Notes under the pieces: generated by a model
Database searches by the model: none
What the model saw: the letters and a program-made list of their open reading frames with translations, nothing else
What the model was told of the DNA's origin: nothing
Shown: positions 1,440-39,601 of the stretch, piece by piece
How the letters are laid out: every line of letters starts with the position of its first letter
Numbering within the stretch: the first letter of the stretch is position 1
DNA from: Phytopythium helicoides
Taxonomy: Eukaryota > Oomycota > Peronosporomycetes > Pythiales > Pythiaceae
Direction of reading: 5' to 3'
Assembly: GCA_024867545.1 (NCBI GenBank)
Contig: JANFNE010000016.1
Span: forward strand, 558,001-622,000
DNA length: 64,000 nt
Translations under genes and position numbers: made by a program

Positions 1440-2060
1440 TCAGCAGTGCACACGACCCGTCGACTGACAGTTGGTCACCACGAACCGGTTACCGTCCGAG
1501 CACTTGCCGCTCGCAATGTCGCCGCGGTCGATCGGCTCGAACTTGGTGCGCCAGTAGCGCACCCACATGCCGTTGCTCTGGATCTTCTCGTAGCGCCAGT
1601 TGTCACGGCCCTTGGTGATTTCTGCCTGCACCTTGGCGGCAGCACCGATGGCACACGTGCGCGAGGGAGTCGAGATCCAGCACGCGACCTGCTGGCACTC
1701 CTTCTTGTTCTTCATGAAGGCGTCTGTGATGAGAGGGGTGATGGCCGACGCGATCGAGAAGGCGGCCACGACGCCCTCGACCACTTGCAGTTCGCGACCC
1801 TCACCGTCCGTGACCTGGGTCAACTGCGTCTCGACATCGATGTTAGCGTCAGCGTCCGCATCGACGTCGATGTCAAAGTCGGTCGCGTTGGCGTGGTAGA
1901 CGTCCGCGTCGATGAACGGGACGTCGATGTTGACGGCGGCTTTGACGTCGTTGACGAAGTTGAGGTTGGTCGTGGCCGTCGCGGTGGCGTCGGCATCAGC
2001 GGTGGCAGAGTACGCGGCGACGGCGGCGAGCGCGGCGATGGTGGCGGTGAAGCACTTCAT
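1440..2060 (-). CDS. Type B small secreted six-cysteine protein, long acidic variant
   Basis: Product of 206 residues from the ATG at 2060, chosen because it opens a clear signal peptide (MKCFTATIAALAAVAAYSA) and lies behind a promoter-like element at 2137..2154; the frame stays open upstream to 2228 but that extension has no secretion signal. After the signal come an Asp/Ala-rich segment with PFIDADVYHANAT, RELQ at 89-92, a hydrophobic helix-like stretch (VVEGVVAAFSIASAITPL), and the cysteine domain: CQQVACW, STPSRTC, KGRDNW, GMWVRYWRT, DRGDIASGKC, VVTNCQSTGRVHC. Spacing is C-x4-C-x8-C-x50-C-x10-C-x7-C, the same frame as type A with a shorter last loop. It is head-to-head with the A gene at 4260. 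Confidence 0.88.
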   Translation of the reverse strand: MKCFTATIAALAAVAAYSATADADATATATTNLNFVNDVKAAVNIDVPFIDADVYHANATDFDIDVDADADANIDVETQLTQVTDGEGRELQVVEGVVAAFSIASAITPLITDAFMKNKKECQQVACWISTPSRTCAIGAAAKVQAEITKGRDNWRYEKIQSNGMWVRYWRTKFEPIDRGDIASGKCSDGNRFVVTNCQSTGRVHC

Positions 2061-4203
2061 GGTCGTGCCGGTGTTCTGGTCGGACTTGACTTGGCAGGGA
2101 AAGGAAGCTTGCTGGGCAGGCTTGTCCGGCTGATGTCGAGATGGAGAATGAAAGAACGCAGTACGGCAGCGAACGCAACCTGATGGGAAGGTCACTGCTT
2201 CCCTACTGGAGATCCATGCAATCTTCAAGCTGACAATCCGATGAAGCCTTTCTTCATCCGCACTGTACGGGTCTGTGAGGATTCACGCGAGGATTCACGC
2301 GAGGTGCGAGGTGCGAGGTGCAGCAGCAAGCGATCCTCCATCGATGTTACCTTTCGTCGACGCACTCGCACTCACTACTGCATAGTACAGTGCGCGTGCG
2401 ACCCGCGACTTGCGACCTGCGACCTGTGCACGCAACCAGTTCGCCATCGATTTGCACCAACTGGTTAGTCGACCGCTCTTCCACTCGGGTCTTGCGTTTT
2501 GTATTGAAGTAGGCTTGTCTATGTTTACCACCCTTTCACTGTTCGCGCGCAGCGTTATTCCCGTCCACAATCCTCCTCCTGCTCATCCCAAGATCGGCGC
2601 GACGCTTGCCCCGCTCCACCATCCGTGGACGTCGTGTGTATAAGTCATGCGGACGTTACAGTGAGGCGTGCTGCATTGAAGTACTACGGTACCATGTGTA
2701 GACAGTGTATCCTTGGATACTTGTAGCAAGCTCTCGTCCACGTACTCCAAAGCAAAACACTACATGTACCGTGCAAAATTGAAGCTCAAATCTCGCTTGG
2801 ATGAACTTGGCGATGCGGCTCCTTGCTGCCTTCCCGCCTGGAGAACATACGTTCAGCGACTACGTGCTCCGTGTCGTTGCTTTACCCAGCCTTGTGCTCT
2901 GTGATTCCCAATCGGAGCTGGTCGCTCCAGACATGATGCAATCCACGAGTACTATTTCCCTTACGCTACAATGCATGTGTTGGCTATTGTTGCTAGATAC
3001 GATACGACATGGGTGGGGGTAGTTGCTGTTGACGCTACTGTTGTCGGGGCCTTCCAACGCGTGCGTGTTGTGTCTGCCGTCCGAGAGACACGAGGAAATC
3101 CTGGGATCGGCAAATGGAGAACGAACCTCATGGATGACTCCAGTCGTGGACAGTACGGCTCTCTACATCGTATGTACGTGGTATCACATCACGCCGACCA
3201 AAGATCGATCGTCTCACAGACTCGCACCGCTGTTTCATCCACGACATCGATGAGAGATCACCATGAACATGGACTTTCCCTGTCCACTTGTTCATGGCTG
3301 GAGCGCGAGTATCCCATCGGCAAGTAACGACAGTGCAGTACATGAATGCACAAGAACACCTCCGATCCAGATCCAGATCTATATCCTTGCTGCACGGTAC
3401 TGTACCGTGTTATGATTGTAGAACCCATCCAGGCCGAGGTGCTTACTTTTACCGTCGTCGTTGAGTCGTCGATGTCAAGGTGCATTGAGCCTCAGGCGGG
3501 GGAACATGCTGTGCTCCCTTCTCCATTTAGACCTGCAGTTGGATGGTTCCATGAAGCAGGAAGTGAACCGTCCTTATCCTCCTCCTCCTCCTCCTCCTCC
3601 TCACTTCCTCGCCCTCACAACGCTCTCGACATCGATTTGCAACACTCGATAATCGAGCACCCATCCGCCACTGCAGTAACTTGAACGTTGTGTGTTTGCA
3701 CTGCCAACAAGAGCGCGTGTCTGGAGGAAGCAACTTGCTGGGTCTCCATGCGCCCCATATGATACGATCTTGGGATTTGATCAGACCGCGCTGCTGTGAT
3801 ACATGTATGGTATCACTCACTCCACTCTGGCACTGACAGAAATACCTATTGTGCATAGCTGCGACGAGACTTGTCGCCTAGCTGCCAGCGATCCGGATAC
3901 TGTAGTACTGTAGCTGGTAAAGATATATGTACTGCACTACAGTAGAACGATGCAACGCGGTCGTGGATGTGCGCGTGAACAGCAGACGGTGACCAACTTG
4001 CCGTTGGACGCCTTTCCATCACGCCATCGGCCCATCATCGCACCACAATCGGATCCTGGTCGACGTCCACTCGTGGCGCTGTGACGAATCATCCATGGTC
4101 TATCATAGCGGAGAGAAAGAGGGAGCACAACAATCTTGCCGCCAACAACAAACAAATCACCTCCAAGTGCTCGCGACTCGACCGTCGTTCGGAGGCCCGA
4201 CAA
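2061..4203. other. Divergent (B|A) intergenic region, about 2.2 kb
   Basis: Contains the Inr-like element for the B gene on the minus strand (CTTTCATTCTCCATCTCG, 2137..2154), a (TCC)n microsatellite near 3577-3601, and several short palindromic TACTGTA/TACAGTA motifs around 3898-3945. Open frames here are short, lack family resemblance and look like chance. Confidence 0.55.
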
Positions 4204-5060
4204 CTCACTCTTCAATTTATCTCGAAGACAACAAGCTACCTATCTCCCACACAACAACCATGAAGACCTCCTTCCTCGCTCTACTCGTCGCCGGAATCGT
4301 CGCCGTTGTCAACGCCGACGCCATTCTCGACCAGCAACCGGCCATTGACGTCGACGTCGACGCCGATGTCGACCCCAACTTCAACGCCGACTTTGACTTC
4401 AACACCACCAGTCGCGAGCTCCAGGCGAAGGTCGCTCCGGGAGACGTCGCGTCTGTCGCCGTCAGCACCATCAGCATCGGCCAGAACATCGCGGCCGCCA
4501 TCGGCAGCGCCAGCAAGAAGCAGTGCCACCAGCTCGCGTGCTGGGTCGCCAGTCCCACGTACGGCTGCCAGTTCGCCGCCGCCAACTACGTGCAGCGAGA
4601 GATCACGCGCGGCCGCAACTCGTTCTCGGTCGAGAGCTCGGGAAACACCGGCATGTGGGTGCGCTACTGGCGCACGGGATTCTACCCTCCGGACCGCGGC
4701 GACATCGCCAAGGGCACGTGCAACGACGGTCGCTCCTACACTGTGACGAACTGCCAGGCGACCAAGGACAAGTCGGTGCACTGCTGATTGCTGTAGCCAA
4801 CTCGGTTGGTTCATCCCCTCACCCACTTCACTTCGTTTCACTTCACCTCACGAGAGGTGTCATTCGGGAGACTCGAGTGGCTCGCTCTAGAAAGAAGTCT
4901 GTTCATGACGATAATGTATGCGTTTGCAACTACGAAACACCTTTGACTGTTGCACAATTGATTTGTTTTGATTTGCGTTTGCGTTTGCGTTTGTGTTTGC
5001 TTGTTGGTCCGATAATCGTTTGTAGTCCTCACCGAGCGTTATCATATCATATCTTGGTTG
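4177..5060 (+). repeat. Direct repeat copy 2 (perfect match to 1..884)
   Basis: Identical partner of 1..884; the match includes the promoter at 4204..4221, the coding region and about 270 bp of 3' flank, and ends sharply at 5060. Confidence 0.9.
4260..4787 (+). CDS. Type A small secreted six-cysteine protein (duplicate of 84..611)
   Basis: 175 residues, identical in sequence to the product of 84..611. The start at 4260 is preferred over upstream in-frame ATGs because it begins the signal peptide and lies 38 bp after the promoter element at 4204..4221. It is head-to-head with the type B gene at 1440..2060 and convergent with the type B gene at 5717..6190. Confidence 0.9.
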   Translation: MKTSFLALLVAGIVAVVNADAILDQQPAIDVDVDADVDPNFNADFDFNTTSRELQAKVAPGDVASVAVSTISIGQNIAAAIGSASKKQCHQLACWVASPTYGCQFAAANYVQREITRGRNSFSVESSGNTGMWVRYWRTGFYPPDRGDIAKGTCNDGRSYTVTNCQATKDKSVHC

Positions 5061-5333
5061 TCTCCGGGAAGCGAGATGGATGGATAAGATACGATGCAGT
5101 TGAGTACGTGCATGATGTACACACTTCCGTAGCGTGGCTCCTTGACGTCGACATTCCTACGTGATTCACCGACCAAATTGTATGCACAATACAAGTCGAT
5201 TCGAGCTCACTCTCACTGCCGCTGACTCAAAGTCAGAGCGGAGAAGTAATTCATCGTCATGTGAAGTTTGTTGTTTTTGTTGTTTATTTTTGTTTTGGGT
5301 TCTATTTTTGTTTTGGGGTTTCTTTCTTGCTCT

Positions 5334-5450
<117 letters not shown>

Positions 5451-5716
5451 ATCTAGCGTCTGGTGTTCTAAATCAGTGTTCAGCGAAGCAACACTGTTGA
5501 AGCCTGGAAAACGTGGGTTATGTACATGCCCTTGCTGATAACCTCGATGCCATGGTCCATCCAGCCATGGCAAGTTTGGCGGAATCTGTTGGCAAGAGCA
5601 TAAAGTTCTCCTTCTAGTGCTAGACATGCTGATTACGAATTTCAATGACTGAGTGAACAATTTCGTACGTCGTTGAGGAACATGCATTACGCTCAACGAC
5701 TATTTCGTAAAGGCGT

Positions 5717-6190
5717 CTAGCAGCGCACGCGCCCCGTCGATTGACAATTAGTCACCACAAATGTGCTGCCATCCGTGCAGTTGCCGCTCGCAATGTCGCC
5801 ACGGTCGACCGGCTCAAACTTCGTGCGCCAGTAGCGCACCCACATGCCGGTGTCCCCGATGCTTTCGTAGCCCCAGTTGTCGCGGCCCTTGGTGATCTCT
5901 GACTGCACCTCGGCAGCGGCAGCGATGGCACATGTACGCGAAGGCGTCGAGATCCAACACGCGAGCTGCTGGCACTCCTTCTTGTTGCCGTTAATGATGT
6001 CGGTAATTACTGGAGTGACTGCTGATGCGATGGAGAACGCGGCCAAGACGCCCTCGACTATCTGGAGGTGGCGATCGTCCCCGTCACCGGCTTCGATCTT
6101 GCTCTCCTGGCGGAAGACCGTGGCGCCAATGAAAGGCAAGTTGGCAGCGGCAATAGCGGCAGCAGTAACTGTTGCAATGAAGCACTTCAT
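5717..6190 (-). CDS. Type B small secreted six-cysteine protein, short-spacer variant
   Basis: 157 residues. Signal peptide MKCFIATVTAAAIAAANL, then a short spacer with RHLQ at 40-43 and IVEGVLAAFSIASAVTPV before the first Cys. It lacks the long acidic segment of the 1440 and 18513 types. Last loop is C-x7-C. Head-to-head with the A gene at 7200 across about 1.0 kb. Confidence 0.9.
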   Translation of the reverse strand: MKCFIATVTAAAIAAANLPFIGATVFRQESKIEAGDGDDRHLQIVEGVLAAFSIASAVTPVITDIINGNKKECQQLACWISTPSRTCAIAAAAEVQSEITKGRDNWGYESIGDTGMWVRYWRTKFEPVDRGDIASGNCTDGSTFVVTNCQSTGRVRC

Positions 6191-6233
6191 GGGTTGTAAG
6201 GTTGAGGCAGAGACGGGTGTGTTTGGTTGGAGT

Positions 6234-6250
6234 CACAATTGAAAATGACC
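6234..6250 (-). promoter_or_regulatory. Inr+FPR core promoter of the B gene 5717..6190
   Basis: On the minus strand the sequence reads GGTCATTTTCAATTGTG, a strong match to the oomycete Inr+FPR, 44 bp before the ATG. The duplicate is at 12190..12206. Confidence 0.7.
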
Positions 6251-6700
6251 ACCATCGTGATACTGCTAGCAAGGACTTCATGCAGCCTCTGAAGATACAC
6301 TGACACAGAGAGCGAGGGCAGTTAACGGACATCGTAAACGCATCAAGTAGATTACGCGTACAGTCGCGAGCTTCGCAGAACCAAGTGCCAGCAGATCATT
6401 CAATGGACATCTTTCGGTTCAAACCATAGTGTAAAGGTGTTTACAGAAGCCATTTCCGCTCTTGCAGAACGACGGACGACTCGCACGATCTCATGTCTGA
6501 CGAATCGTCGCGCACGCAGCACGTCAAAAAATGGCGAAGTCAAGTGGAACGCTACAGTGTAACTCACATCATCTGGTCGATCATGAGATCGGTATTGGTC
6601 CCGGCTCTCCCAATACCAAGACCATGATGTGAGGCTTCGCCGCTGGGATCACTCAGCGCTCAAGCCATCGCATCTGGTTATGAGCAAGAAGAAGAAGAAG

Positions 6701-6732
<32 letters not shown>

Positions 6733-7133
6733 ACCTTGGGATGATGTGGAACTGCAATTTCCTGGATCGTGGATGTGAGCATCAATGTGAACATCCACAC
6801 TATAGCGTTCTCGGGCGACAGATGTTGTTCGAGACGTTTGGCTGCAGCCGCAATCGAGGTGTTTCCTTTTGGTGGAGTATCTCGATATTGTATCTCTCTA
6901 TCTCTCCAGATGGTAAGGTGTCGGCATCGGGTCGGGTCGTGTGGGTACCCTGCTATTCACGCTCTCGAGTACAACTGAGCATGGCGATTGGCAGTGCTTG
7001 AAACGCACTCCCACGGTGCCTGTAGTTCGTCGCCAATCGTCTTCCGGAGCATAATCGCGCTCATCTGTAACTTAACGCCTTCAGTGTAGCGCATACCAGC
7101 GTGCTTTGGTTACTCAACTGCCCCGGATAGCAA
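6251..7133. other. Divergent (B|A) spacer with poly-A tract
   Basis: No supported gene. Contains a (GAA)n run leading into a 29-base A run at 6701..6729; the equivalent run in unit II (12656..12683) is one base shorter. The rest is unrecognised shared promoter region for the flanking B and A genes. Confidence 0.6.
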
Positions 7134-7151
7134 CCTCACTTTTCAATCTGC
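7134..7151 (+). promoter_or_regulatory. Inr+FPR core promoter of the A gene 7200..7691
   Basis: CCTCACTTTTCAATCTGC fits Inr plus FPR and sits about 50 bp before the ATG. The duplicate is at 13088..13105. Confidence 0.65.
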
Positions 7152-7199: not shown

Positions 7200-7691
7200 A
7201 TGAAGACGATCGTAGCGCTCGCTGTAGCCGGAGTCCTGGCTATCGGTAACGCAGAGGTCCAGCCTTCGGAGGCGCGAGTACTGCGCACTGCTGCTACTGG
7301 TACTAGCACGTCCACCACGAGCGGTACCAGCACGATCGGCTCGGTGTCGTCTATCGCTGTCAGCACCATCAACCTAGCTGCGGGAGTCACGGGTGCTGTT
7401 GTGTCGGCCGAGTCGCGAAGCAAGGGCTGCCACCAGCTTGCGTGCTGGATCGCCAGTCCTACATATGACTGCCAATTCGCTGCCGCCAACTGGGTCCAGC
7501 GTGAATTGACCAAGGGTCGCAACTCATTCGGCGTTGAGAGCTCTGGTGACACGGGGATGTGGGTTCGCTACTGGCGGACTACATTTTACCCTCCAGACCA
7601 GGGTGACATTGCTGCTGGAAACTGCACAGATGGCACGGTATACACGGTGACGAACTGCCAGCCGACCAAGGATCGCTCGGTCTACTGCTAA
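7200..7691 (+). CDS. Type A small secreted six-cysteine protein with a canonical RxLR
   Basis: 163 residues from the ATG that opens the signal peptide (MKTIVALAVAGVLAIGNA). RVLR occupies residues 26-29, about nine residues after the predicted cleavage site: a literal match to the oomycete host-translocation motif, at the place where paralogs have RELQ, RALE or RDLK. A Thr/Ser-rich linker (GTSTSTTSGTST) follows, then CHQLACW, YDCQFAAANWVQ, GMWVRYWRT, PPDQGD, TVTNCQ and terminal Cys. No EER motif is seen, so a classical RXLR-EER effector is not claimed. Confidence 0.9.
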   Translation: MKTIVALAVAGVLAIGNAEVQPSEARVLRTAATGTSTSTTSGTSTIGSVSSIAVSTINLAAGVTGAVVSAESRSKGCHQLACWIASPTYDCQFAAANWVQRELTKGRNSFGVESSGDTGMWVRYWRTTFYPPDQGDIAAGNCTDGTVYTVTNCQPTKDRSVYC

Positions 7692-8408: not shown

Positions 8409-8894
8409 TTAGCAGTACACGCTCCCATCTGGATACTGGCAGTTCGTCACCGTGTACGCCGTGCCATCTGTGCACGTGCCCTTGGCGATGTCGCCCTGGT
8501 CAGGAGGGTAGAAGAGTGTCCGCCAGTAGCGAACCCACATTCCCGTGTCATCAGAGCTCTCGACACCAAACGAGTTGCGGCCCTTCGTCAGATTATCCTG
8601 GACCCAGTTAGCGGCAGCGAATTGACAGTCGTACGTCGAGCTGGAAATCCAGCACGCGAGCTGGTGGCAGTCCTTGCTTGAGCTCGTGCTGTTGACGATA
8701 CTCGCAATGTCTGTCGCGAGAGTGATGGTGCTGACAGCAATCGAAGATACGTCGCTGGCGGTGATGCTGGCAGCGGACTTGAGGTCACGGTTGGCGGCAG
8801 CCTCTTCAACGCCACGTACGCTTGAAGCAGCAGCTCCGGTATTGTGCGCAACGACAATGCAGCCGGCAAAGACGAGCACGCTGGTGGTCTTCAT
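8409..8894 (-). CDS. Type A small secreted six-cysteine protein, RDLK variant
   Basis: 161 residues. Signal peptide MKTTSVLVFAGCIVVAHN, RDLK at 36-39, then SSIAVSTITLATDIASIV ahead of CHQLACW. The last inter-cysteine loop is x8 (QYPDGSVY), between type A x9 and type B x7. Convergent with the A gene at 7200 and head-to-head with the B gene at 9612 (717 bp). Confidence 0.9.
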   Translation of the reverse strand: MKTTSVLVFAGCIVVAHNTGAAASSVRGVEEAAANRDLKSAASITASDVSSIAVSTITLATDIASIVNSTSSSKDCHQLACWISSSTYDCQFAAANWVQDNLTKGRNSFGVESSDDTGMWVRYWRTLFYPPDQGDIAKGTCTDGTAYTVTNCQYPDGSVYC

Positions 8895-8955: not shown

Positions 8956-9555
8956 TTGGATATGAGGGCGGAACGCTAGAGCTTCACACCTCAATCCCTC
9001 AATAGGCTCTGTAGAGGCAGTCGCCTGCAGCCCCCCAAACACAGGTGGTACGACATACATTGGCATAGTATAGTAATGGTTCATAGGACCACTCCCAGAC
9101 TGCTACAAACACAGCTGGCTGCTATCGTGGAACTGCAATGGACGGTCATGGAGTACCATGCTACGCGTCGCACTGCTCCATTCGCTATGCTACGTATATA
9201 TAGCTTCGCCCGGAGTGAACCATAGTGATCTGTAAAGAACTGTCAGCATTGGGATGTGCTCCGGATATTGAAGTCGGGAATCGAGCCAGACACTTGGTCG
9301 ATCCCAAGATTTCATACATGCCACCAGATCGGCATAGCGTAGCGAAATGAAGTTGTAGGTGACGAACTTGTGGGCTCACGTGCGAATGGGATTCCCCCCG
9401 ATCCGAGCCGGTGTTCGAGTAGTCTTGTCTCTGCATGGCAGATGGAACGGAAGCACAATGCCCTCGGTCTGAAAATCCTGGTTTCTTTGAGTATCTTCAA
9501 CCACACCTTGGCGTTCCATGGCTCTCGAAGAGCTAGCCAAATGGCACGTAACGCC

Positions 9556-9611: not shown

Positions 9612-10088
9612 ATGAAGACTGTTACCAAGACTCTCGCTTTCATCTCTGCATCTGCCGCGGCAGTCTACGCCGCAAGCTCGATCGACGCCCACTTCGTCGA
9701 CGCTGACATCTACCACTCCGAGACTGCTGATCGCCAGCTCCAGGTGGTCGAGGGGATCATTGCCGCATTCACGATTGCCTCGGCAGTCGAGCCACTCATC
9801 GCGGACGCCATCGAGAGCAGCAAGAAGGAGTGTCAGCAAGTCGCCTGCTGGATTTCGACCAACTCGCGCACGTGCGCCATCAGCGCCGCAATGGAGGTGC
9901 AGACTGAGATCATGAAGGGTCGTGACCAGTACGGCTACGAGGATATCGAGGACAATGGGATGTGGGTGCGCTACTGGCGCACCACGTTCGAGCCGATTGA
10001 CCGGGGAGATATTGCGAGTGGCAACTGCACGGATGGCAGCAGTTTCGTAGTGACGAACTGCCAGTCTACGGGTTCTGTCTACTGTTAA
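9612..10088 (+). CDS. Type B small secreted six-cysteine protein, MKTV variant
   Basis: 158 residues. Signal peptide MKTVTKTLAFISASAAAVYA, then HFVDADIYHSETADRQLQ (RQLQ at 41-44), VVEGIIAAFTIASAVEPL, CQQVACW, STNSRTC, KGRDQYGYEDI, GMWVRYWRT, DRGDIASGNC, VVTNCQSTGSVYC. The FVDADIY segment is shared with the long type B proteins. Head-to-head with the A gene at 8409. Confidence 0.9.
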   Translation: MKTVTKTLAFISASAAAVYAASSIDAHFVDADIYHSETADRQLQVVEGIIAAFTIASAVEPLIADAIESSKKECQQVACWISTNSRTCAISAAMEVQTEIMKGRDQYGYEDIEDNGMWVRYWRTTFEPIDRGDIASGNCTDGSSFVVTNCQSTGSVYC

Positions 10089-11406
<1,318 letters not shown>

Positions 11407-11672
11407 ATCTAGCGTCTGGTGTTCTAAATCAGTGTTCAGCGAAGCAACACTGTTGAAGCCTGGAAAACGTGGGTTATGTACATGCCCTTGCTGATAACCT
11501 CGATGCCATGGTCCATCCAGCCATGGCAAGTTTGGCGGAATCTGTTGGCAAGAGCATAAAGTTCTCCTTCTAGTGCTAGACATGCTGATTACGAATTTCA
11601 ATGACTGAGTGAACAATTTCGTACGTCGTTGAGGAACATGCATTACGCTCAACGACTATTTCGTAAAGGCGT

Positions 11673-12146
11673 CTAGCAGCGCACGCGCCCCGTCGATTGA
11701 CAATTAGTCACCACAAATGTGCTGCCATCCGTGCAGTTGCCGCTCGCAATGTCGCCACGGTCGACCGGCTCAAACTTCGTGCGCCAGTAGCGCACCCACA
11801 TGCCGGTGTCCCCGATGCTTTCGTAGCCCCAGTTGTCGCGGCCCTTGGTGATCTCTGACTGCACCTCGGCAGCGGCAGCGATGGCACATGTACGCGAAGG
11901 CGTCGAGATCCAACACGCGAGCTGCTGGCACTCCTTCTTGTTGCCGTTAATGATGTCGGTAATTACTGGAGTGACTGCTGATGCGATGGAGAACGCGGCC
12001 AAGACGCCCTCGACTATCTGGAGGTGGCGATCGTCCCCGTCACCGGCTTCGATCTTGCTCTCCTGGCGGAAGACCGTGGCGCCAATGAAAGGCAAGTTGG
12101 CAGCGGCAATAGCGGCAGCAGTAACTGTTGCAATGAAGCACTTCAT
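11673..12146 (-). CDS. Type B six-cysteine protein (duplicate of 5717..6190)
   Basis: 157 residues, identical protein to the unit I copy, with the same promoter element at 12190..12206. Head-to-head with the A gene at 13154. Confidence 0.9.
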   Translation of the reverse strand: MKCFIATVTAAAIAAANLPFIGATVFRQESKIEAGDGDDRHLQIVEGVLAAFSIASAVTPVITDIINGNKKECQQLACWISTPSRTCAIAAAAEVQSEITKGRDNWGYESIGDTGMWVRYWRTKFEPVDRGDIASGNCTDGSTFVVTNCQSTGRVRC

Positions 12147-12206: not shown

Positions 12207-12655
12207 ACCATCGTGATACTGCTAGCAAGGACTTCATGCAGCCTCTGAAGATACACTGACACAGAGAGCGAGGGCAGTTAACGGACATCGTAAACGCATC
12301 AAGTAGATTACGCGTACAGTCGCGAGCTTCGCAGAACCAAGTGCCAGCAGATCATTCAATGGACATCTTTCGGTTCAAACCATAGTGTAAAGGTGTTTAC
12401 AGAAGCCATTTCCGCTCTTGCAGAACGACGGACGACTCGCACGATCTCATGTCTGACGAATCGTCGCGCACGCAGCACGTCAAAAATGGCGAAGTCAAGT
12501 GGAACGCTACAGTGTAACTCACATCATCTGGTCGATCATGAGATCGGTATTGGTCCCGGCTCTCCCAATACCAAGACCATGATGTGAGGCTTCGCCGCTG
12601 GGATCACTCAGCGCTCAAGCCATCGCATCTGGTTATGAGCAAGAAGAAGAAGAAG

Positions 12656-13153: not shown

Positions 13154-13645
13154 ATGAAGACGATCGTAGCGCTCGCTGTAGCCGGAGTCCTGGCTATCGG
13201 TAACGCAGAGGTCCAGCCTTCGGAGGCGCGAGTACTGCGCACTGCTGCTACTGGTACTAGCACGTCCACCACGAGCGGTACCAGCACGATCGGCTCGGTG
13301 TCGTCTATCGCTGTCAGCACCATCAACCTAGCTGCGGGAGTCACGGGTGCTGTTGTGTCGGCCGAGTCGCGAAGCAAGGGCTGCCACCAGCTTGCGTGCT
13401 GGATCGCCAGTCCTACATATGACTGCCAATTCGCTGCCGCCAACTGGGTCCAGCGTGAATTGACCAAGGGTCGCAACTCATTCGGCGTTGAGAGCTCTGG
13501 TGACACGGGGATGTGGGTTCGCTACTGGCGGACTACATTTTACCCTCCAGACCAGGGTGACATTGCTGCTGGAAACTGCACAGATGGCACGGTATACACG
13601 GTGACGAACTGCCAGCCGACCAAGGATCGCTCGGTCTACTGCTAA
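13154..13645 (+). CDS. Type A six-cysteine protein with RVLR (duplicate of 7200..7691)
   Basis: 163 residues, identical protein to the unit I copy including RVLR at 26-29; promoter element at 13088..13105. Confidence 0.9.
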   Translation: MKTIVALAVAGVLAIGNAEVQPSEARVLRTAATGTSTSTTSGTSTIGSVSSIAVSTINLAAGVTGAVVSAESRSKGCHQLACWIASPTYDCQFAAANWVQRELTKGRNSFGVESSGDTGMWVRYWRTTFYPPDQGDIAAGNCTDGTVYTVTNCQPTKDRSVYC

Positions 13646-14354: not shown

Positions 14355-14840
14355 TTAGCAGTACACGCTCCCATCTGGATACTGACAGTTCGTCACCGTG
14401 TACGCCGTGCCATCTGTGCACGTGCCCTTGGCGATGTCGCCCTGGTCAGGAGGGTAGAAGAGTGTTCGCCAGTAGCGAACCCACATTCCTGTGTCTCCAG
14501 AGCTCTCGACACCAAACGAGTTGCGACCCTTCGTCAGATTATCCTGGACCCAGTTAGCGGCAGCGAATTGACAGTCGTATGTCGAGCTGGAAATCCAGCA
14601 CGCGAGCTGGTGGCAGTCCTTGCTTGAGCTCGTGCTGTTGACGATACTCGCAATGTCTGTCGCGAGAGTGATCGTACTGACCGCAATCGAAGATACGTCG
14701 CTGGCGGTGATGCTGGTAGCGGACTTGAGGTCACGATTGGCAGCAGCCTCTTCAACGCCACGTACGCTTGAGGCAGCAGCTCCGGCATTGTGCGCAACGA
14801 CAATGCAGCCGGCAAAGACGAGCACGCTGGTGATTTTCAT
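14355..14840 (-). CDS. Type A six-cysteine protein, RDLK variant (duplicate of 8409..8894)
   Basis: 161 residues, four substitutions from the unit I copy (T3I, T19A, A42T, and Asp to Gly before DTGMW), all outside the cysteines. Promoter element at 14883..14901; head-to-head with the B gene at 15564. Confidence 0.9.
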   Translation of the reverse strand: MKITSVLVFAGCIVVAHNAGAAASSVRGVEEAAANRDLKSATSITASDVSSIAVSTITLATDIASIVNSTSSSKDCHQLACWISSSTYDCQFAAANWVQDNLTKGRNSFGVESSGDTGMWVRYWRTLFYPPDQGDIAKGTCTDGTAYTVTNCQYPDGSVYC

Positions 14841-15563
14841 TGGTGGACGATGGAGTCGAAGTCGATCGCTGTTGGAGTTGCTGGGAAATTGAAGAATGCT
14901 CTTGGATACGAGGGCGGAACGCTAGAGCTTCACTCCTCAATCCCTCAATAGGTGCTGTAGAGGCAGCCGTCTGCAGCCCCTCAAGCACAGATACAGTATA
15001 GTGGTATGATATAGTATAGGAATGGTTCACAGGACCACTCCCAGACTGCTACAAACACAGCTGGCTGATATCGTGGAACAGCAATGGACGGTCATGGAGT
15101 ACCATGTTACGCGTCGCACTTCTCCATTCGCTGTGCTACGTATATATGGCTTCGCCCGGAGTGAGCCATACTGTAGTGATCTGTTAAGAGCTGTCAGCAT
15201 CAGGATGTGCTCCATATATATTGAAGTCGGGAATCGAGCCAGACACTTGGCCGATCCCAAGATTTCATACATACCACAAGATCGGCATAGCGTGGCGAAA
15301 TGAAGTTGTAGGTGACGAACTTGTGGGCTCACGTGCGAATGGGATTCCCCCGATCCGAGCCAGTGTCCGAATAGTCTTGCCTCTGCACGGCAGATGGAAC
15401 GAAAGCACATTGCCCTCGGTCTGAAAATCCTGGTTTCTTTGAGTATCTTCAACCACACCTTGGCGTTCCATGGCTCTCGGAGACCTAGCCAAATGGCACG
15501 TAACGCCGCTCATTCCTCAACATTTCGCCTACCCACAAAGCACAACCCAGCGCGTAGACAAAC

Positions 15564-16040
15564 ATGAAGACTGTTACCAAGACTCTCGCTTTCATCACTG
15601 CATCTGCCGCGGCAGTCTACGCCGCAAGTTCGATCGACGCCCACTTTGTCGACGCTGACATCTATCACTCCGAGACTGCTGACCGCCAGCTCCAGGTGGT
15701 CGAGGGGATCATTGCCGCATTCACGATTGCCTCGGCAGTCGAGCCACTCATCGCGGACGCCATCGAGAGCAGCAAGAAGGAGTGTCAGCAAGTCGCCTGC
15801 TGGATTTCGACCAACTCGCGCACTTGCGCCATCAGCGCCGCAATGGAGGTGCAGACTGAGATCATGAAGGGTCGTGACCAGTACGGCTACGAGGATATCG
15901 AGGACAATGGGATGTGGGTGCGCTACTGGCGCACCACGTTCGAGCCGATTGACCGGGGAGATATTGCGAGTGGCAACTGCACGGATGGCAGCAGTTTTGT
16001 TGTGACGAACTGCCAGTCTACGGGTTCTGTCTACTGTTAA
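15564..16040 (+). CDS. Type B six-cysteine protein (duplicate of 9612..10088)
   Basis: 158 residues, one substitution (S12T, in the signal peptide) from the unit I copy; promoter element at 15508..15526. It is the last gene of the B-A-A-B units, and the next family locus (17540) is on the same strand, the only break in the alternating-strand pattern. Confidence 0.9.
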   Translation: MKTVTKTLAFITASAAAVYAASSIDAHFVDADIYHSETADRQLQVVEGIIAAFTIASAVEPLIADAIESSKKECQQVACWISTNSRTCAISAAMEVQTEIMKGRDQYGYEDIEDNGMWVRYWRTTFEPIDRGDIASGNCTDGSSFVVTNCQSTGSVYC

Positions 16041-17539: not shown

Positions 17540-17923
17540 AGGCGGACGCAGAGGCAGCCGGCAAGGTCTCGCCGGGTGACGTCTCGTCCGTCGTTGTCAA
17601 CTCGATCAACATCGGCAGCAGCATCGCGGGAGCCATCAGTGCTGCTGGCAAGAAGGAGTGCCATCAGCTCGCATGCTGGATCGCCAGTCCCACCTATGGC
17701 TGCCAGTTCGCCGCTGCCAACTACGGTCCAGCGCGAGCTCACGCGCGGCCGCAACTCGTTCGGTGTGCTCAGCTCGGCCAACAACGGTATGTGGGTTCGC
17801 TACTGGCGTACGACCTTCTACCCGCCGGACCAGGGTGATGTCGCCAAGGGAACGTGCAGCGACGGACACTCGTACACGGTGACGAACTGCCAGCCGACCA
17901 AGGACAAGTCTGTCTACTGCTAA
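17540..17923 (+). pseudogene. Truncated and frameshifted type A copy
   Basis: Family homology starts abruptly at 17540 within the ADAEAAGKV segment, so the promoter, signal peptide and RALE motif are missing. An extra G at about 17725-17726 (CTACGGTCC here, CTACGTCC in intact copies) shifts the frame before the QREL segment; downstream sequence to the terminal Cys codon is otherwise intact and the usual 3' flank follows. Convergent with the B gene at 18513. Confidence 0.9.
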
Positions 17924-18512: not shown

Positions 18513-19094
18513 CTAGCAGTGCACACGGCCCGTTGACTGACAGTTGGTCACCACGAACCGGTTGCCGTCCGTGCACTTGCCGCTCGCGATGTCACCACGG
18601 TCGGCCGGCTCGAACTTGGTGCGCCAGTAGCGCACCCACATGCCGTTGCTCTGGATGCTCTCGTATCCCCAGTTGTCACGGCCCTTGGTGATCTTGGCCT
18701 GCACCTGTGCGGCCGCACCGATGGCGCACGTGCGCGAAGGAGTGGAGATCCAACACGCGAGCTGCTGGCACTCCTTCTTGTTGTTCTTGATGGCATCCGT
18801 GATGAGTGGCACAACAGCCGACGCGATAGTGAAGGCAGCCACGACACCCTCGACCACCTGCAGCTGGCGGTCCTCGCCATCGTCGTCGTCCTCGGACACC
18901 TCCATCAGCTGCGAGTCGGTGGCGTTCGTGTAGTAGACGTCGGCGTCGACGAACGGGACGTCGATCTCCGTGAGGCCGGTGTTCGGGACCGAGTCGGCAA
19001 GGTTGGTCTCTGCGGCGATGGCGGCGACAGCAGGCGTGGAGGTGATGGCGAGTGCGGCGAGTGCGGCGGTGGCGGCGGCGAAGAAGCACTTCAT
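18513..19094 (-). CDS. Type B six-cysteine protein, array form 1
   Basis: 193 residues from the ATG at 19094, which begins the signal peptide (MKCFFAAATAALAALAITST). Then IDVPFVDADVYYTNAT with one N-glycosylation sequon, an acidic run (SEDDDDGED), RQLQ at 76-79, VVEGVVAAFTIASAVVPL and cysteines at 109, 114, 123, 174, 185, 193. The frame is open upstream to 19394, but that stretch lies in the promoter spacer and is rejected. Head-to-head with the A gene at 20670. Confidence 0.9.
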   Translation of the reverse strand: MKCFFAAATAALAALAITSTPAVAAIAAETNLADSVPNTGLTEIDVPFVDADVYYTNATDSQLMEVSEDDDDGEDRQLQVVEGVVAAFTIASAVVPLITDAIKNNKKECQQLACWISTPSRTCAIGAAAQVQAKITKGRDNWGYESIQSNGMWVRYWRTKFEPADRGDIASGKCTDGNRFVVTNCQSTGRVHC

Positions 19095-20570
19095 TATGAG
19101 AGTTGTTGAGAGAAGAGGAGAGAAGCTTGGAGGCTTGTTCTTCTTGGTTGGAGGGTCGGTGGCGGATTTGGGAATGGTGGGTGTCGTCTGGTGGGATTTG
19201 GTTGGGGGTCGAGACGCGCTGTCCGTGTGAGCGAGCACGAGTGTCGGAGCTGTGACGATTATGGCTGCAAGAGGAGGTGGCGGCGAGTGGAATGATGCGT
19301 TGTGCTGCTCGTGCTGCACTGTATGTACCGGTAGAGGGCGACGTTGTACACGCTCAGGTGATTTGTTGAATCTCGCTTTTACTGTACAGTTCAAGTGGTC
19401 AAGCGTTCAAGCGCAGCGTGCGTGAGCGTGAGGATAGCCGCGGTGCAATTCGATCCGAATCCTTGCTCGGCCTGTAGATGAGTACAATACAGTATCAACG
19501 GTTGCTCATAGTCAGCATCTTGCTGTGCGAACAGCGCACACGACACACGACCAGTCTGTGGTGACTGTGAAGAGCGGCGCATCTTCCGATTTGCACCATC
19601 CGGTAATCGAGCGTGATTCAGTTGATGACTTGGCGTTTGTAAGGGAGAAGACTCGTCTTTGTTCGCCACCCTTTCACTGTTCGCGCCGCAGTTGGCCCGT
19701 CGATGGACGCGTTGAAGCACCGGTGTCCGTTCGCGCGCTCCCAGGACCTCGCTTTGTCTAGGAGTGGCTTCCGCGGCAGCCATCGGCTGCGCTCACGGCG
19801 TATCTTGGGATCGGCACACCAGTGGCTCAGCCAGTGGCTGGCTGTGTGTCATGACGTGGTCCGGTACATGTACTGTAGCGCATTGGTTGAAACTGCGGTG
19901 CAATTTTATCCTGCAGAGGGAGCTAGCATCCGTGATGCATCGCATCATCCAAGAGTCCATCTGACAGATCGTCGTGGCAAGTTGCCACATCCAGAACACC
20001 ATTCTCACGTGCTGTAGACACTGCTCTACACTGATCCAGGACGTGCAATCGGCAAGCTCGACTTCATGCCGGAAGTGGAGTCTTCATTTGTGGCGCGTGG
20101 TGAACAGACCAATTGCGTGAGGTAAAGCGGGTCCCTCCACGCGCTCGCACCCCTCCGTCAGCCGTCAGTGCAACCTTACAGTACTATGTACTGTATGCCA
20201 GCAAGCGAGATATGTTTGGTCTGCCTGTCACGTCGTGAGTGACACGACACAGGACACTGTGATGGCCGATCCTGGATGATCCAACAACAGCCTGCACTGC
20301 ATCCCCGCATTGTAACGTTGTTATTGGATCTTTGCATCCCCGCTCGCATGGTTCCTAGGATTTGTTGATGCACACAGCCGTTGCAATGGACACAAGAGTG
20401 CGTGCGAGGACAACCGGCCCATTCTCTCTGTCCGAACCGTACGTCAACAGAACAGTAGGATTTGTGATGTGCCGTCTGCAAAGTGGATATAGTACAGGAG
20501 AGAAACCAACGCCGACCTTCGACTGCTCCACGAGTCGCGAGCTCCGGGCCAGCGCCGATCTTGTCATCTA
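19095..20570. other. Long-class divergent (B|A) spacer 1
   Basis: Shared 5' region of the B gene at 18513 and the A gene at 20670; no gene seen. Long-class spacers also lie at 22327..23892 and 37630..39112. The B-proximal ~465 bp are identical to the spacer at 37630, whereas the A-proximal part is nearly identical to the spacer at 22327, so it is a mosaic. Confidence 0.7.
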
Positions 20571-20669: not shown

Positions 20670-21158
20670 ATGAAGACTTTCGTCGCTCTGCTCGTCGCCG
20701 GCCTCGTCGCCATCGTCAACGCCGAGGTCCCTGTCGACATCAACCTCGACCTCAACACCACGACTCGCGCGCTCGAGGCGGACGCAGAGGCAGCCGGCAA
20801 GGTCTCGCCGGGTGACGTCTCGTCCGTCGTTGTCAACTCGATCAACATCGGCAAGAGCATCGCTGGCGCCATCAGTGCTGCTGGCAAGAAGGAGTGCCAT
20901 CAGCTCGCATGCTGGATCGCCAGTCCCACCTATGGCTGCCAGTTCGCCGCTGCCAACTACGTCCAGCGCGAGCTCACGCGCGGCCGCAACTCGTTCGGTG
21001 TGCTCAGCTCGGCCAACAACGGTATGTGGGTTCGCTACTGGCGTACGACCTTCTACCCGCCGGACCAGGGTGATGTCGCCAAGGGAACGTGCAGCGACGG
21101 ACACTCGTACACGGTGACGAACTGCCAGCCGACCAAGGACAAGTCTGTCTACTGCTAA
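20670..21158 (+). CDS. Type A six-cysteine protein, array form (GKS/NYVQ)
   Basis: 162 residues. Signal peptide MKTFVALLVAGLVAIVNA, then EVPVDINLDLNTTTRALEAD with one Asn-Thr-Thr sequon and RALE at 33-36, then a Val/Ser-rich helix-like stretch and cysteines at 76, 81, 90, 141, 152, 162. It carries GKSIAGA before the cysteine domain and AANYVQ after the third Cys, distinguishing it from later array copies (GSSIAGA, AANWVQ). Confidence 0.92.
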   Translation: MKTFVALLVAGLVAIVNAEVPVDINLDLNTTTRALEADAEAAGKVSPGDVSSVVVNSINIGKSIAGAISAAGKKECHQLACWIASPTYGCQFAAANYVQRELTRGRNSFGVLSSANNGMWVRYWRTTFYPPDQGDVAKGTCSDGHSYTVTNCQPTKDKSVYC

Positions 21159-22326: not shown

Positions 22327-23793
22327 TATGGGAGTTGTTGAGAGACGAGGAGAGAAGCTTGGAGGCTTGTTCTTCTTGGTTGGAGGGTCGGTGGCGGATT
22401 TGGGAATGAAGGGTGTCGTCTGGCGGGAGTCGGGTGGGGGTCTAGCCGCGTTGTCCGTGTGAACGAGCACGAGTGTCAGAGCTGTGACGATCGTGGCTGC
22501 AAGAGGAGGTAGCGGCGAGTGGAATGATGTGGTGTGCTGCTCCTGCTGCACTGTACGTACCGGTAAAGGGCGACGTTGTACACGCTCATGTGATTTGTTG
22601 AATCTCGCTTTTACTGTACAGTTCAAGCGCAGCGTGCGTGAGCGTGAGGATAGTCGCGGTGCAATTCGATCCGAATTCATGTACACCATATACTGTAGAT
22701 GAGTACAATACAGTTGGCCAACTGTTGCTCATAGTCAGCATCTTGCTGTGCGAACAGCACACACTATTGATAGCAGTCTGCTGGTGACTGTGAAGAGCGG
22801 CGCATCTTCCGATTTGCACCATCCGGTAATCGAGCGTGATTCAGTTGATGACTTGGCGTTTGTAAGGGAGAAGACTCGTCTTTGTTCGCCACCCTTTCAC
22901 TGTTCGCGCCGCAGTTGGCCCGTCGATGGACGCGTTGAAGCACCGGTGTCCGTTCGCGCGCTCCCAGGACCTCGCTTTGTCTAGGAGTGGCTTCCGCGGC
23001 AGCCATCGGCTGCGCTCACGGCGTATCTTGGGATCGGCACACCAGTGGCTCAGCCAGTGGCTGGCTGTGTGTCATGACGTGGTCCGGTACATGTACTGTA
23101 GCGCATTGGTTGAAACTGCGGTGCAATTTTATCCTGCAGAGGGAGCTAGCATCCGTGATGCATCGCATCATCCAAGAGTCCATCTGACAGATCGTCGTGG
23201 CAAGTTGCCACATCCAGAACACCATTCTCACGTGCTGTAGACACTGCTCTACACTGATCCAGGACGTGCAATCGGCAAGCTCGACTTCATGCCGGAAGTG
23301 GAGTCTTCATTTGTGGCGCGTGGTGAACAGACCAATTGCGTGAGGTAAAGCGGGTCCCTCCACGCGCTCGCACCCCTCCGTCAGCCGTCAGTGCAACCTT
23401 ACAGTACTATGTACTGTATGCCAGCAAGCGAGATATGTTTGGTCTGCCTGTCACGTCGTGAGTGACACGACACAGGACACTGTGATGGCCGATCCTGGAT
23501 GATCCAACAACAGCCTGCACTGCATCCCCGCATTGTAACGTTGTTATTGGATCTTTGCATCCCCGCTCGCATGGTTCCTAGGATTTGTTGATGCACACAG
23601 CCGTTGCAATGGACACAAGAGTGCGTGCGAGGACAACCGGCCCATTCTCTCTGTCCGAACCGTACGTCAACAGAACAGTAGGATTTGTGATGTGCCGTCT
23701 GCAAAGTGGATATAGTACAGGAGAGAAACCAACGCCGACCTTCGACTGCTCCACGAGTCGTGGGCTTCGAACCAGCTCCGATCTTGTCATCTA
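22327..23793. other. Long-class divergent (B|A) spacer 2
   Basis: No gene seen. The A-proximal kilobase is nearly identical to 19560..20669. The B-proximal part carries its own substitutions relative to spacer 1. Confidence 0.65.
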
Positions 23794-35964: not shown

Positions 35965-36453
35965 ATGAAGACCTTCGTCGCTCTGCTCGTCGCCGGCCTC
36001 GTCGCCATCGTCAACGCCGAGGTCCCTGTTGACATCAATCTCGACCTCAACACCACGACTCGTGCGCTCGAGGCGGACGCAGAGGCAGCCGGCAAGGTCT
36101 CGCCGGGTGACGTCTCGTCCGTCGTTGTCAACTCGATCAACATCGGCAGCAGCATCGCGGGAGCCATCAGTGCTGCTGGCAAGAAGGAGTGCCACCAGCT
36201 CGCTTGCTGGATCGCCAGTCCCACCTACGGCTGTCAGTTCGCCGCTGCCAACTGGGTCCAGCGCGAGCTCACGCGCGGTCGTAACTCGTTCGGTGTGCTC
36301 AGCTCGGCCAACAACGGCATGTGGGTTCGCTACTGGCGTACAACCTTCTACCCGCCGGACCAGGGCGATGTCGCCAAGGGAACGTGCAGCGACGGACACT
36401 CGTACACGGTGACGAACTGCCAGCCGACCAAGGACAAGTCTGTCTACTGTTAA
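35965..36453 (+). CDS. Type A six-cysteine protein, array form (GSS/NWVQ)
   Basis: 162 residues, protein identical to 32939; differs by silent changes around 36204-36230 and at 36342 (ACA for ACG in WRTT). Confidence 0.92.
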   Translation: MKTFVALLVAGLVAIVNAEVPVDINLDLNTTTRALEADAEAAGKVSPGDVSSVVVNSINIGSSIAGAISAAGKKECHQLACWIASPTYGCQFAAANWVQRELTRGRNSFGVLSSANNGMWVRYWRTTFYPPDQGDVAKGTCSDGHSYTVTNCQPTKDKSVYC

Positions 36454-37047
36454 TTTCTCGCCGTCACTTCGATCGGCGTCACTTCGATTGGAGTCATTTT
36501 GATCGGAGTCATTTCGTGGTCAGTAAGAGCATGAGTGGTATGTTTATACGAATGAATAGCGTTGAGAGATGTGAAGTTGGAAGCATTGAGATGATGATCG
36601 TGTACGTTCATTGTGGGTAGTTGGAGTGCTGCAGCATATCACGAGTCAATACAACGTAAAGCTCACGGCGGTGACTACAGTCGTTCGCCCAATCAGCGTC
36701 AATATGAGGGAAGACCAAACTACTACACAACACTAGACCAGAGCACAGTATATACTATGAAGTCTGTACCTATATGAATACTCGAGAGTATGAGACTCTG
36801 TCGATAACGGGCCTGGTACAGTATCACTACACTACACTACACTCCACTCGCTCATCGCGCGAAAGCGAAAGCGAAGGCGAAAACCAAAACCAAAACCAAA
36901 ACCAAAAAGCTATCCAAAAACGGAAGGCATCTCATCGACTCGATATGCATATGACATTTGATAGTACGAACCAACACGCAATACCCGGTCTCACAAGACA
37001 GATACCACGGAACACGGCGGCCAACTCCTCACGACCCATCGACCCAT

Positions 37048-37629
37048 CTAGCAGTGCACGCGGCCCGTCGACTGGCAGTTGGTCACCACGAACCGGTTGC
37101 CGTCCGTGCACTTGCCGCTCGCGATGTCACCACGGTCCGCCGGCTCGAAGCGCGTGCGCCAGTAGCGCACCCACATGCCGTTGCTCTGGATGCTCTCGTA
37201 TCCCCAGTTGTCACGGCCCTTGGTGATCTTGGCCTGCACCTGTGCGGCCGCACCGATGGCACACGTGCGCGAGGGAGTGGAGATCCAGCACGCGAGCTGC
37301 TGGCACTCTTTCTTGTTGTTCTTGATGGCGTCCGTGATGAGCGGCACAACAGCCGACGCGATGGTGAAGGCGGCCACGACACCCTCGACCACCTGCAGCT
37401 GGCGGTCCTCGCCATCGTCGTTGTCCTCGGACACCTCCATCAGCTGCGAGTCGGTGGCGTTTGTGTAGTAGACGTCGGCGTCGACGAACGGGACGTCGAT
37501 CTCCGTGAGACCGGTGTCCGGGACCGAGTCGACGAGGTTGGTCTCTGTGGCGGTGGCGGCGACAGCAGGCGTGGAGGTGATGGCGAGTGCGGCGAGTGCG
37601 GCGGTGGCGGCGGCGAAGAAGCACTTCAT
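37048..37629 (-). CDS. Type B six-cysteine protein, array form 3
   Basis: 193 residues, same protein as 30996 and 34022, but it has a long-class 5' spacer whose first ~465 bp are identical to that of the form 1 gene at 18513. Gene body and promoter therefore have different recombination histories. The open frame to 37929 is an artefact of this spacer. Confidence 0.92.
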   Translation of the reverse strand: MKCFFAAATAALAALAITSTPAVAATATETNLVDSVPDTGLTEIDVPFVDADVYYTNATDSQLMEVSEDNDDGEDRQLQVVEGVVAAFTIASAVVPLITDAIKNNKKECQQLACWISTPSRTCAIGAAAQVQAKITKGRDNWGYESIQSNGMWVRYWRTRFEPADRGDIASGKCTDGNRFVVTNCQSTGRVHC

Positions 37630-39009
37630 TATGAGAGTTGTTGAGAGAAGAGGAGAGAAGCTTGGAGGCTTGTTCTTCTTGGTTGGAGGGTCGGTGGCGG
37701 ATTTGGGAATGGTGGGTGTCGTCTGGTGGGATTTGGTTGGGGGTCGAGACGCGCTGTCCGTGTGAGCGAGCACGAGTGTCGGAGCTGTGACGATTATGGC
37801 TGCAAGAGGAGGTGGCGGCGAGTGGAATGATGCGTTGTGCTGCTCGTGCTGCACTGTATGTACCGGTAGAGGGCGACGTTGTACACGCTCAGGTGATTTG
37901 TTGAATCTCGCTTTTACTGTACAGTTCAAGTGGTCAAGCGTTCAAGCGCAGCGTGCGTGAGCGTGAGGATAGCCGCGGTGCAATTCGATCCGAATCCTTG
38001 CTCGGCCTGTAGATGAGTACAATACAGTATCAACGGTTGCTCATAGTCAGCATCTTGCTGTGCGAACAGCGCACACGACACACGACCAGTCTGTTGATGA
38101 AGAGCTGCGCATCTTCCGATTTGCACCATCCGGTAATCGAGCGTGTTTGAGTTGGTGACTTGTCATTTGTAGGGAAGAAGACTCGTCTTTGTTCCCCACC
38201 CTTTCACTGTTCGCACCGCAGTTGGCCCGTCGATGGACGCGTTGAAGCGCCGGTGTCGGTTCGCGCGCTCCCAGGACCTCGCTTTGTCTAGGAGTGGCTT
38301 CCGCGGGAGCCATCGGCTGCGCTCACGGCATATCTTGGGATCGGCACACCAGTGGCTCAGCCTGTGGCTGACTGTGCGTCATGGCACGATCCGGTACATG
38401 CATTGGTGGAAGCTGCGGTGCCATTTTATCCTACAGACGGAGCTACCGGTAGCATCAGTGATCCATCACATCATGTAAGAGTCCATCTGACAGATCTGAC
38501 AGATCGTTGTGGCAAGTTGTCACATCCAGAACACCATTCTCACATGCTGTAGACACTGCTCCACACTGATCCAGGACGAGTAATCGACATGCTAGACTTC
38601 ATGCTGGAAGTGGAGTACTTCGTTTGCGGCGTGTGATGAACAGACCGATTGCGTGAGGTAAAGCGGGTGCCTCCACACACTCGCTTTTCCCCGTCAGTCG
38701 TCAGTACAATGTATGCCAGCAAGCGAGATATGTTTGGTCTGCCTGTCACGTCGTCAAACGTTGCTATTGAATCTTTGCATCCCCGCTCGCATGGTTCCTA
38801 GGATTTGTTGATGCACACAGTCGTTGCAGTGGACACAAGAGTGCGCGCGAGGACAACCGGTCCATTCTCTCTGTCCGAACCGTACGTCAACAGAACAGTA
38901 GGATTTGTGATGTGCCGTCTGCAAAGTGGGTATACAAGAGAGAAACTACGCCAACCTTCGACCGCTCCACGAGTCGTGAGCTCCGTACCAGCGCTGATCT
39001 TGTCAACTA
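37630..39009. other. Long-class divergent (B|A) spacer 3
   Basis: The B-proximal ~465 bp match 19095..19559 exactly; from about 38095 the sequence is a diverged and partly deleted relative of the other long-class spacers. No gene seen. Confidence 0.65.
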
Positions 39010-39112
39010 TCACTTTCGAATTTCACTCGAACCAACCAAGCAAGCGACCAAGCGACCAAGCGACTTCCAGACGCCAACTATCCGTTTCCTCGTCACCAAG
39101 CACTTCTACACC

Positions 39113-39601
39113 ATGAAGACCTTCGTCGCTCTGCTCGTCGCCGGCCTCGTCGCCATCGTCAACGCCGAGGTCCCTGTTGACATCAATCTCGACCTCAACA
39201 CCACGACTCGTGCGCTCGAGGCAGACGCAGAGGCAGCCGGCAAGGTCTCGCCGGGTGACGTCTCGTCCGTCGTTGTCAACTCGATCAACATCGGCAGCAG
39301 CATCGCGGGAGCCATCAGTGCTGCTGGCAAGAAGGAGTGCCATCAGCTCGCTTGCTGGATCGCCAGTCCCACCTACGGCTGTCAGTTCGCCGCTGCCAAC
39401 TGGGTCCAGCGCGAGCTCACGCGCGGTCGTAACTCGTTCGGTGTGCTCAGCTCGGCCAACAACGGCATGTGGGTTCGCTACTGGCGTACGACCTTCTACC
39501 CGCCGGACCAGGGCGATGTCGCCAAGGGAACGTGCAGCGACGGACACTCGTACACGGTGACGAACTGCCAGCCGACCAAGGACAAGTCTGTCTACTGTTA
39601 A
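39113..39601 (+). CDS. Type A six-cysteine protein, last copy of the array
   Basis: 162 residues, same protein as 32939 and 35965. Head-to-head with the B gene at 37048. Array homology ends about 165 bp after its stop codon; no B gene follows. Confidence 0.92.
   Translation: MKTFVALLVAGLVAIVNAEVPVDINLDLNTTTRALEADAEAAGKVSPGDVSSVVVNSINIGSSIAGAISAAGKKECHQLACWIASPTYGCQFAAANWVQRELTRGRNSFGVLSSANNGMWVRYWRTTFYPPDQGDVAKGTCSDGHSYTVTNCQPTKDKSVYC

Follow-up and report, generated by a model that had tools for sequence, protein, structure and literature searches.

The HcA/HcB chorion genes of the silkmoth form 21 strict head-to-head (HH) pairs whose members lie 330 nt apart, eighteen in the order B(-)/A(+) and three inverted, with pseudogenes among them, and the A and B genes of these pairs are coordinately expressed, according to the excerpted source (PMC4639761). 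Adjacent divergent genes for secreted proteins are also described for Fusarium, where the extract at hand reports joint action of the partners in Avr2-SIX5 and SIX8-PSL1 (PMC10942635). Here we analyse a window of 64,000 nucleotides from the oomycete Phytopythium helicoides (contig JANFNE010000016.1, hereafter C9, positions 558001-622000) in the context of the whole genome searched (49.06 Mb, 100 contigs). The window carries an array of two kinds of genes, A and B, which encode paralogous small proteins with a six-cysteine core and predicted secretion. It seems to us fairly probable, judging from sequence, that they constitute a divergently transcribed module for a co-regulated and co-evolving secreted A/B pair.

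An A partner in HH orientation was found for 22 of the 22 B genes of the genome, at two loci (C9 and contig C18), and in one case this partner is a remnant only. The C9 copies comprise 16 B genes, one of them frame-disrupted and outside the window, and 17 A genes (15 intact, one frameshifted, one truncated); on C18 there are six B genes, five A genes and one A remnant, with 25 matching residues, next to an insertion. All HH contacts join an A to a B (16/16 on C9; 6/6 on C18, one with the A remnant). Tail-to-tail contacts number 12 A-B, two A-A and one B-B on C9 and five A-B on C18, and one same-strand neighbour contact occurs, on C9. Because the tail-to-tail neighbours vary, HH is the conserved relation, and since HH gaps span 717-2296 bp (insertion aside) and tail gaps 589-1584 bp, it is not merely the tightest neighbourhood. 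Tail-to-tail pairing or simple alternation as the true unit is ruled out by the A-A and B-B tail contacts. The sequence-only reading of this window had listed 12 B genes, each with a divergent A gene at its 5' side, and the coordinates and strands of all 12 and of their A partners agree with the list of open reading frames; the frameshift that it gave for A29912 is also real, matches being split over two frames. Two A copies of the window were absent from that list, A84-611 (+) and a 5'-truncated remnant at about 17540-17923 (+), which is the sole A-type copy of both arrays without a B at its 5' side.

Genome searches, in which match counts are lower bounds, gave at least 47 matches with one A protein and at least 45 with one B protein (some genes appearing as two pieces), all inside C9:542.5-597.6 kb and C18:310.7-344.4 kb. 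A distant relative, P0010, gave at least 46 matches, 45 of them at those same places and the remaining one, on C23, containing stops (E 0.09). Thus, no solitary A or B was found outside the C9 and C18 clusters in the whole genome, within the sensitivity of the search tool. An insertion of about 18.9 kb at C18:313550-332434, retroelement-like in that gag-, RT/RNaseH- and integrase-like frames are visible by eye, has replaced most of one A gene, and the adjoining B gene and the dyad element described below persist.

Since most of the 22 pairs are recent tandem copies, they reduce to five diverged lineages genome-wide, I-IV on C9 and V on C18. The 12 pairs listed for the window represent four of these lineages and so do not count as 12 separate cases; the view that three repeat architectures give independent evidence for the pairing is likewise not supported.

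Counting short words common to all lineages identified de novo a single dyad element, ATCNTGGGATCG (ATC-NTGG-GAT), which occurs once in each of the 22 HH spacers, in 20 as an exact match and in two, both of lineage II, with one mismatch. It is oriented along the coding strand of A in every HH spacer (22/22) and lies at 0.39-0.48 of the distance from B in all 21 intact spacers. Within one mismatch it is absent from the 17,040 bp of other array spacers and from the coding regions. The window contains 12 matches, one per HH spacer, against 1.28 expected, and none of 100 shuffles reached 12; genome-wide, 58 exact matches were found in 49 Mb, 20 of them in these arrays, and the reversed pattern gives nine. 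When lineage III served as reference, four mismatches summed over the other four lineages remained for the best 12-mer, compared with eight or more in 40 shuffles; at length 14 the values were 9 versus 10 and at length 16 they were 13 versus 14, still beating all 40 shuffles, narrowly. As the pattern was derived from the same spacers, only this shuffle test corrects for its choice. Run on five tail-spacer stretches, of which one comprised the initial 900 bases of the B-B spacer, the same word search gave no notable result, with 3 to 8 of 40 shuffles doing as well. A conserved element in the common 5' region, the test for a divergent co-regulated secreted pair, is thus present in 22/22 spacers, its regulatory role being putative. 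Of the 38 dyad matches outside the arrays, 14 were inspected, on eleven stretches, and revealed no common theme; three of these matches surround a long copia-like frame (by eye), several fall within long frames, and one, at positions 1527-1538 of C82:17701-20700, precedes a secreted-looking frame by 197 nt.

Individual candidate start sites were also detected. A scan of the 110 nt before each ATG, covering five lineages with lineage IV taken three times, found the oomycete INR-like (initiator-like) site, taken as YCAYTYY from the part of the source available (PMC3599244), at 13 of 14 starts, compared with 3.35 expected by shuffling; the site lies 54-103 nt upstream, and on the opposite strand the count was 0/14. 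With one spacer per lineage, nine of ten starts have the site versus 2.27 expected. A single bidirectional core promoter is not favoured, because 13/14 starts own an INR-like site. Co-expression of A and B, driven by the shared central element together with INR-like sites near most starts, is therefore the likely outcome of this layout, and we place good confidence in co-regulation of the two genes as read from these sequences. We postulate that a regulator would bind the central element and fire both genes, each from its own INR-type start site 54-103 nt upstream of the ATG; this regulator would probably be a dimer, because ATC-NTGG-GAT is a dyad.

The seemingly homologous element in all spacers also indicates that the HH arrangement was probably inherited once and then copied as a unit. 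It is thus reasonable to ask whether the pairing is no more than history, block-wise copying of an ancestral HH pair having preserved it while A and B act separately. Most copies are indeed near-identical tandem units, an inversion of the whole unit keeps the HH order automatically, and one apparently homologous element in all spacers points to a single origin. However, whole HH spacers compared between lineages are at shuffle level in eight of ten comparisons outside the element, and yet the element has been kept. Further blocks are common to I and IV (about 106 nt, Smith-Waterman score 92, shuffle maximum 46) and to II and V (about 95 nt, 165, maximum 35). Tail flanks scored 30 on both the A and B sides for I-IV (shuffle maxima 31 and 30), and 50 at the A 3' flank (maximum 31) and 28 on the B side (maximum 35) for II-V, so that a block, weaker than that of the HH spacer, is kept downstream of A; these scores were set against plain shuffles, and those of the HH spacers against dinucleotide shuffles. 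The persistence of both members with low rates of core replacement in all five lineages, and the covariation of their core charges, both detailed below, also speak against a merely historical pairing, which we regard as rather unlikely.

The ratio of nonsynonymous to synonymous substitution (dN/dS) in the six-cysteine core between lineages is 0.05-0.23 in A and B, with 0.27-0.72 synonymous differences per site among the five main lineages and 0.14-0.15 between two sub-groups of lineage IV. Strong purifying selection thus acts on both cores, which means that A and B are each kept for the protein they encode, with less constraint on the N-terminal half (dN/dS 0.09-0.90). Core net charge in lineages I-V is +5, 0, -4, +3 and -3 for A and +6, 0, -5, +5 and -3 for B, so that partners are nearly equal, contrary to an earlier statement that A and B differ consistently in charge. 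The covariation reaches r 0.99 over the five pairs. Among the 120 permutations no other than the observed pairing attains this value; among 20,000 random residue scales 0.5% do, and the mean r over all these scales, 0.39, is a measure of what common descent contributes by itself. On four independent contrasts r is 0.985. If it holds in more lineages, this matched charge would be the best sign of co-adaptation. Twelve core columns vary in charge in A and 12 in B, with three in common, and gene conversion within pairs as the source of the matched charge is not favoured, 3/12 charge-varying columns being common. Two of the three common columns are adjacent within a single loop, and the members of pair II show local similarity, so that some gene conversion within pairs is possible.

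Relatives exist in metagenomes; the A-type P0003 and the B-type P0006, P0007 and P0008 each have a longest contig of 16,501 bases. P0009-P0014 and P0016 make up a further group, the C type, which stands between A and B and joined only weakly (59/0) in a tree that left out P0016. In all of the 23 sequences with a readable N-terminus we found an RxL[RQEKL] site, against 0.5 expected. At its fourth position, C-type proteins and some A proteins have R, further A proteins have E, Q or K, and B proteins have mostly Q; strict RxLR is thus confined to C-type proteins and a subset of A and is absent from B. Among the C-type members strict RxLR is present in 5/5 with an N-terminus, plus the partial P0012. 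With signal peptides judged by eye, it is reasonable to suppose that A and B enter the secretory route and would probably be cut after RxL, as in oomycete RXLR effectors.

Many RXLR effectors are missed by family models. Among eight A and B proteins there was no Pfam match to the RXLR family at E up to 1 and none to elicitins (PF00964), and an NCBIfam scan of 24 members returned no family. The core is predicted to be a compact six-cysteine alpha/beta domain of the form beta-alpha-beta4, preceded in both A and B by a hydrophobic stretch, and it found no clear structural match among solved folds; KP6 killer-toxin-like folds, considered as a candidate, were not among the fold matches listed, which excludes nothing. 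Collections of viral and prokaryotic contigs gave 52 and 16 pattern matches, respectively, none of them a relative. In the PubMed Central (PMC) library searched, no paper contained the peptide string mwvryw, and none of the papers listed, judged by title and the start of the abstract, deals with the A/B family or with such oomycete pairs. Apparently, A and B are a pair of secreted proteins of no known family that has not been described.

We infer that A and B may be physical partners: once released, they would act as proteins of one fold in a joint complex or on a common target. From the sequences, functional partnership is an even call. A different kind of partnership could be envisaged, in which one secreted member is active and the other, also secreted, inhibits or carries it, so that it stays harmless or stable until its time of use. 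Matched yet distinct members of one predicted fold, likely co-regulation and the hydrophobic stretch before both cores would suit such a guard, but the arrays contain both an intact B next to a broken A and an intact A next to a disrupted B, so that neither member is strictly needed by its immediate neighbour, and we consider this proposal improbable. The two proteins could instead be bulk coat, adhesive or spore-wall proteins made in fixed ratio, like chorion A/B, and not effectors. In favour of this idea, the array closely parallels the silkmoth HcA/HcB genes in its strict HH order, one inverted block and pseudogenes, as far as the chorion extract describes them (PMC4639761), and has many near-identical copies, as high-dose genes do. 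Nevertheless, the predicted core is compact and not repetitive, and an RXLR-like processing site would be unusual in wall proteins, which leaves a structural role on the unlikely side.

Several observations weigh against a co-regulated and co-evolving A/B pair. The A gene of lineage III has no YCAYTYY site; a 16-nt block joining the INR with the flanking promoter region (FPR) reached a shuffle p <0.05 in only 7/14 starts; 0.7-2.3 kb is a long spacer for a shared promoter; and the tail flanks are partly conserved as well (A 3' flank, 50 versus 31 for II-V and 56 versus 33 for II-III). One of 22 B genes is frame-disrupted, and the A copies include one with a frameshift and two truncated ones; recent copies can thus lose a partner. 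The distance trees of A and B agree moderately (mirror-tree r 0.63, with 4/120 permutations as high), and the resemblance of partners is only slightly higher than that of non-partners (58.5% versus 57.2%, 6/120 permutations as high). The number of lineages, five, is small and common descent raises correlations; equal charge signs do not favour electrostatic A-B docking; and the data had already been seen when the dyad pattern, the set of fourth residues in RxL and the direction of the charge test were chosen.

The order of genes along the window is as follows. Lineage I, built of 4.2 kb units, contributes the A gene at 84..611 (+), paired HH with a B gene beyond the left edge of the window (C9:555264-555884), and one full pair, B at 1440..2060 (-) and A at 4260..4787 (+), with the dyad element at 3098..3109 (+). 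Lineages II and III share a joint 5.95 kb unit present twice in the window. Its first copy includes the lineage II genes B 5717..6190 (-) and A 7200..7691 (+) around the one-mismatch element at 6580..6591 (+), and the inverted lineage III pair, A 8409..8894 (-) and B 9612..10088 (+), around the element at 9299..9310 (-). The second copy has B 11673..12146 (-) and A 13154..13645 (+) of lineage II, with a one-mismatch element at 12535..12546 (+), followed by A 14355..14840 (-) and B 15564..16040 (+) of lineage III, with the element at 15252..15263 (-). A very long CT/GA microsatellite occupies about 10900-11500, in the B-B tail-to-tail spacer, and a shorter one lies near 5200-5540.

Lineage IV includes the truncated A remnant (17540..17923, +), which has no HH partner, and seven units of 3.0-3.2 kb. 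The first pair is B 18513..19094 (-) and A 20670..21158 (+), with the dyad element at 19802..19813 (+). Pairs 2 to 7 are B21748-22326 (-) and A23893-24381 (+), B24971-25549 (-) and A26902-27390 (+), B27980-28558 (-) and the frameshifted A29912-30401 (+), B30996-31577 (-) and A32939-33427 (+), B34022-34603 (-) and A35965-36453 (+), and B37048-37629 (-) and A39113-39601 (+); their elements start at 23025, 26088, 29098, 32125, 35151 and 38332, all on the + strand. The unit of lineage V, on C18, measures 2.74 kb. Array homology was detected from C9:542537, a B stop codon, to C9:597601, the stop codon of the last A gene (A39113-39601), considering only matches of at least 60 or at least 200 bases, and such ends suggest the HH module itself as the unit of duplication. 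The module and not the single gene would then have been duplicated, inverted and moved, with the charge of both members shifting in step. More tentatively, and as a possibility short of probable, A and B may represent an undescribed two-subunit oomycete system, RxL-processed, wired for co-expression by the central dyad and copied as pairs only, in which charge-matched sets would be flavours of one heteromeric product for different surfaces or environments.

To the right of the array, a frame at 42649-43830 (+) has a C-terminal Cas12f1-like TNB zinc domain (PF07282, E 2e-7) and looks like a eukaryotic nuclease of the Fanzor/TnpB type, and the frame at 62927-63715 (+) encodes a protein that by eye appears secreted, with long PT/SPTE repeats (PF04886). 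Matches elsewhere in the genome number at least 64 for elicitins, at least 27 for NPP1 and at least 40 for Crinkler, which mark it as an oomycete genome, and a search of it for 5.8S rRNA gave no hit; the NPP1 clusters at C37:228-251 kb and C41:206-232 kb show many equal-score matches at a constant offset and are possibly uncollapsed haplotypes of the assembly.

Secreted proteins of oomycetes are usually studied singly. Here the genome itself hints which two of them belong together, in five diverged versions and with a cis-element amenable to deletion. Should the pairing be functional, it would provide an oomycete counterpart to the Fusarium divergent effector pairs, a further eukaryotic case, beside insect chorion, of maintained HH arrays of paralogs, and a natural series of co-evolved partners for studying how secreted heteromers stay matched. 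Elicitins are small secreted six-cysteine proteins of oomycetes, and A and B resemble them in being small, six-cysteine and predicted to be secreted, but differ in lacking a match to PF00964 and in their predicted beta-alpha-beta4 core. RXLR effectors are cleaved between L and the second R, as stated in the portion of the source at hand (PMC11754927), and A and B share with them a secretion signal (by eye) followed by a stretch of low-confidence prediction, probably disordered, that contains the RxL site; they differ in the variable fourth residue, the lack of a Pfam match to the RXLR family and the six-cysteine core. A processing-like RxL site is now seen on a protein family that matches no RXLR model.

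Regarding the arrangement of the genes, the Fusarium pairs share with A/B the adjacent divergent genes for secreted proteins, and the start codons of the possible pair SIX7/SIX12 are 2319 bp apart, similar to the longest A/B spacers; in contrast, within the extract consulted (PMC10942635), the Fusarium partners belong to different structural families, whereas A and B are paralogs with one predicted fold, SIX8-PSL1 is linked by a disulfide between free cysteines, whereas the A and B cores have six cysteines each, and single pairs in a fungus stand against arrays here. With the silkmoth chorion genes, as described in the accessible part of the report (PMC4639761), A and B have in common two related secreted families in a strict HH array with a common 5' region, an inverted block and pseudogenes; the proteins and the organism are unrelated, the HH spacers are 717-2296 nt instead of 330 nt, and the coordinate expression described for chorion A and B is a prediction here. 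By what was compared, A/B has architecture alone in common with the chorion and Fusarium systems. This architecture is closest to the silkmoth HcA/HcB chorion arrays, and the function, by analogy, may be closer to that of the divergent Fusarium effector pairs.

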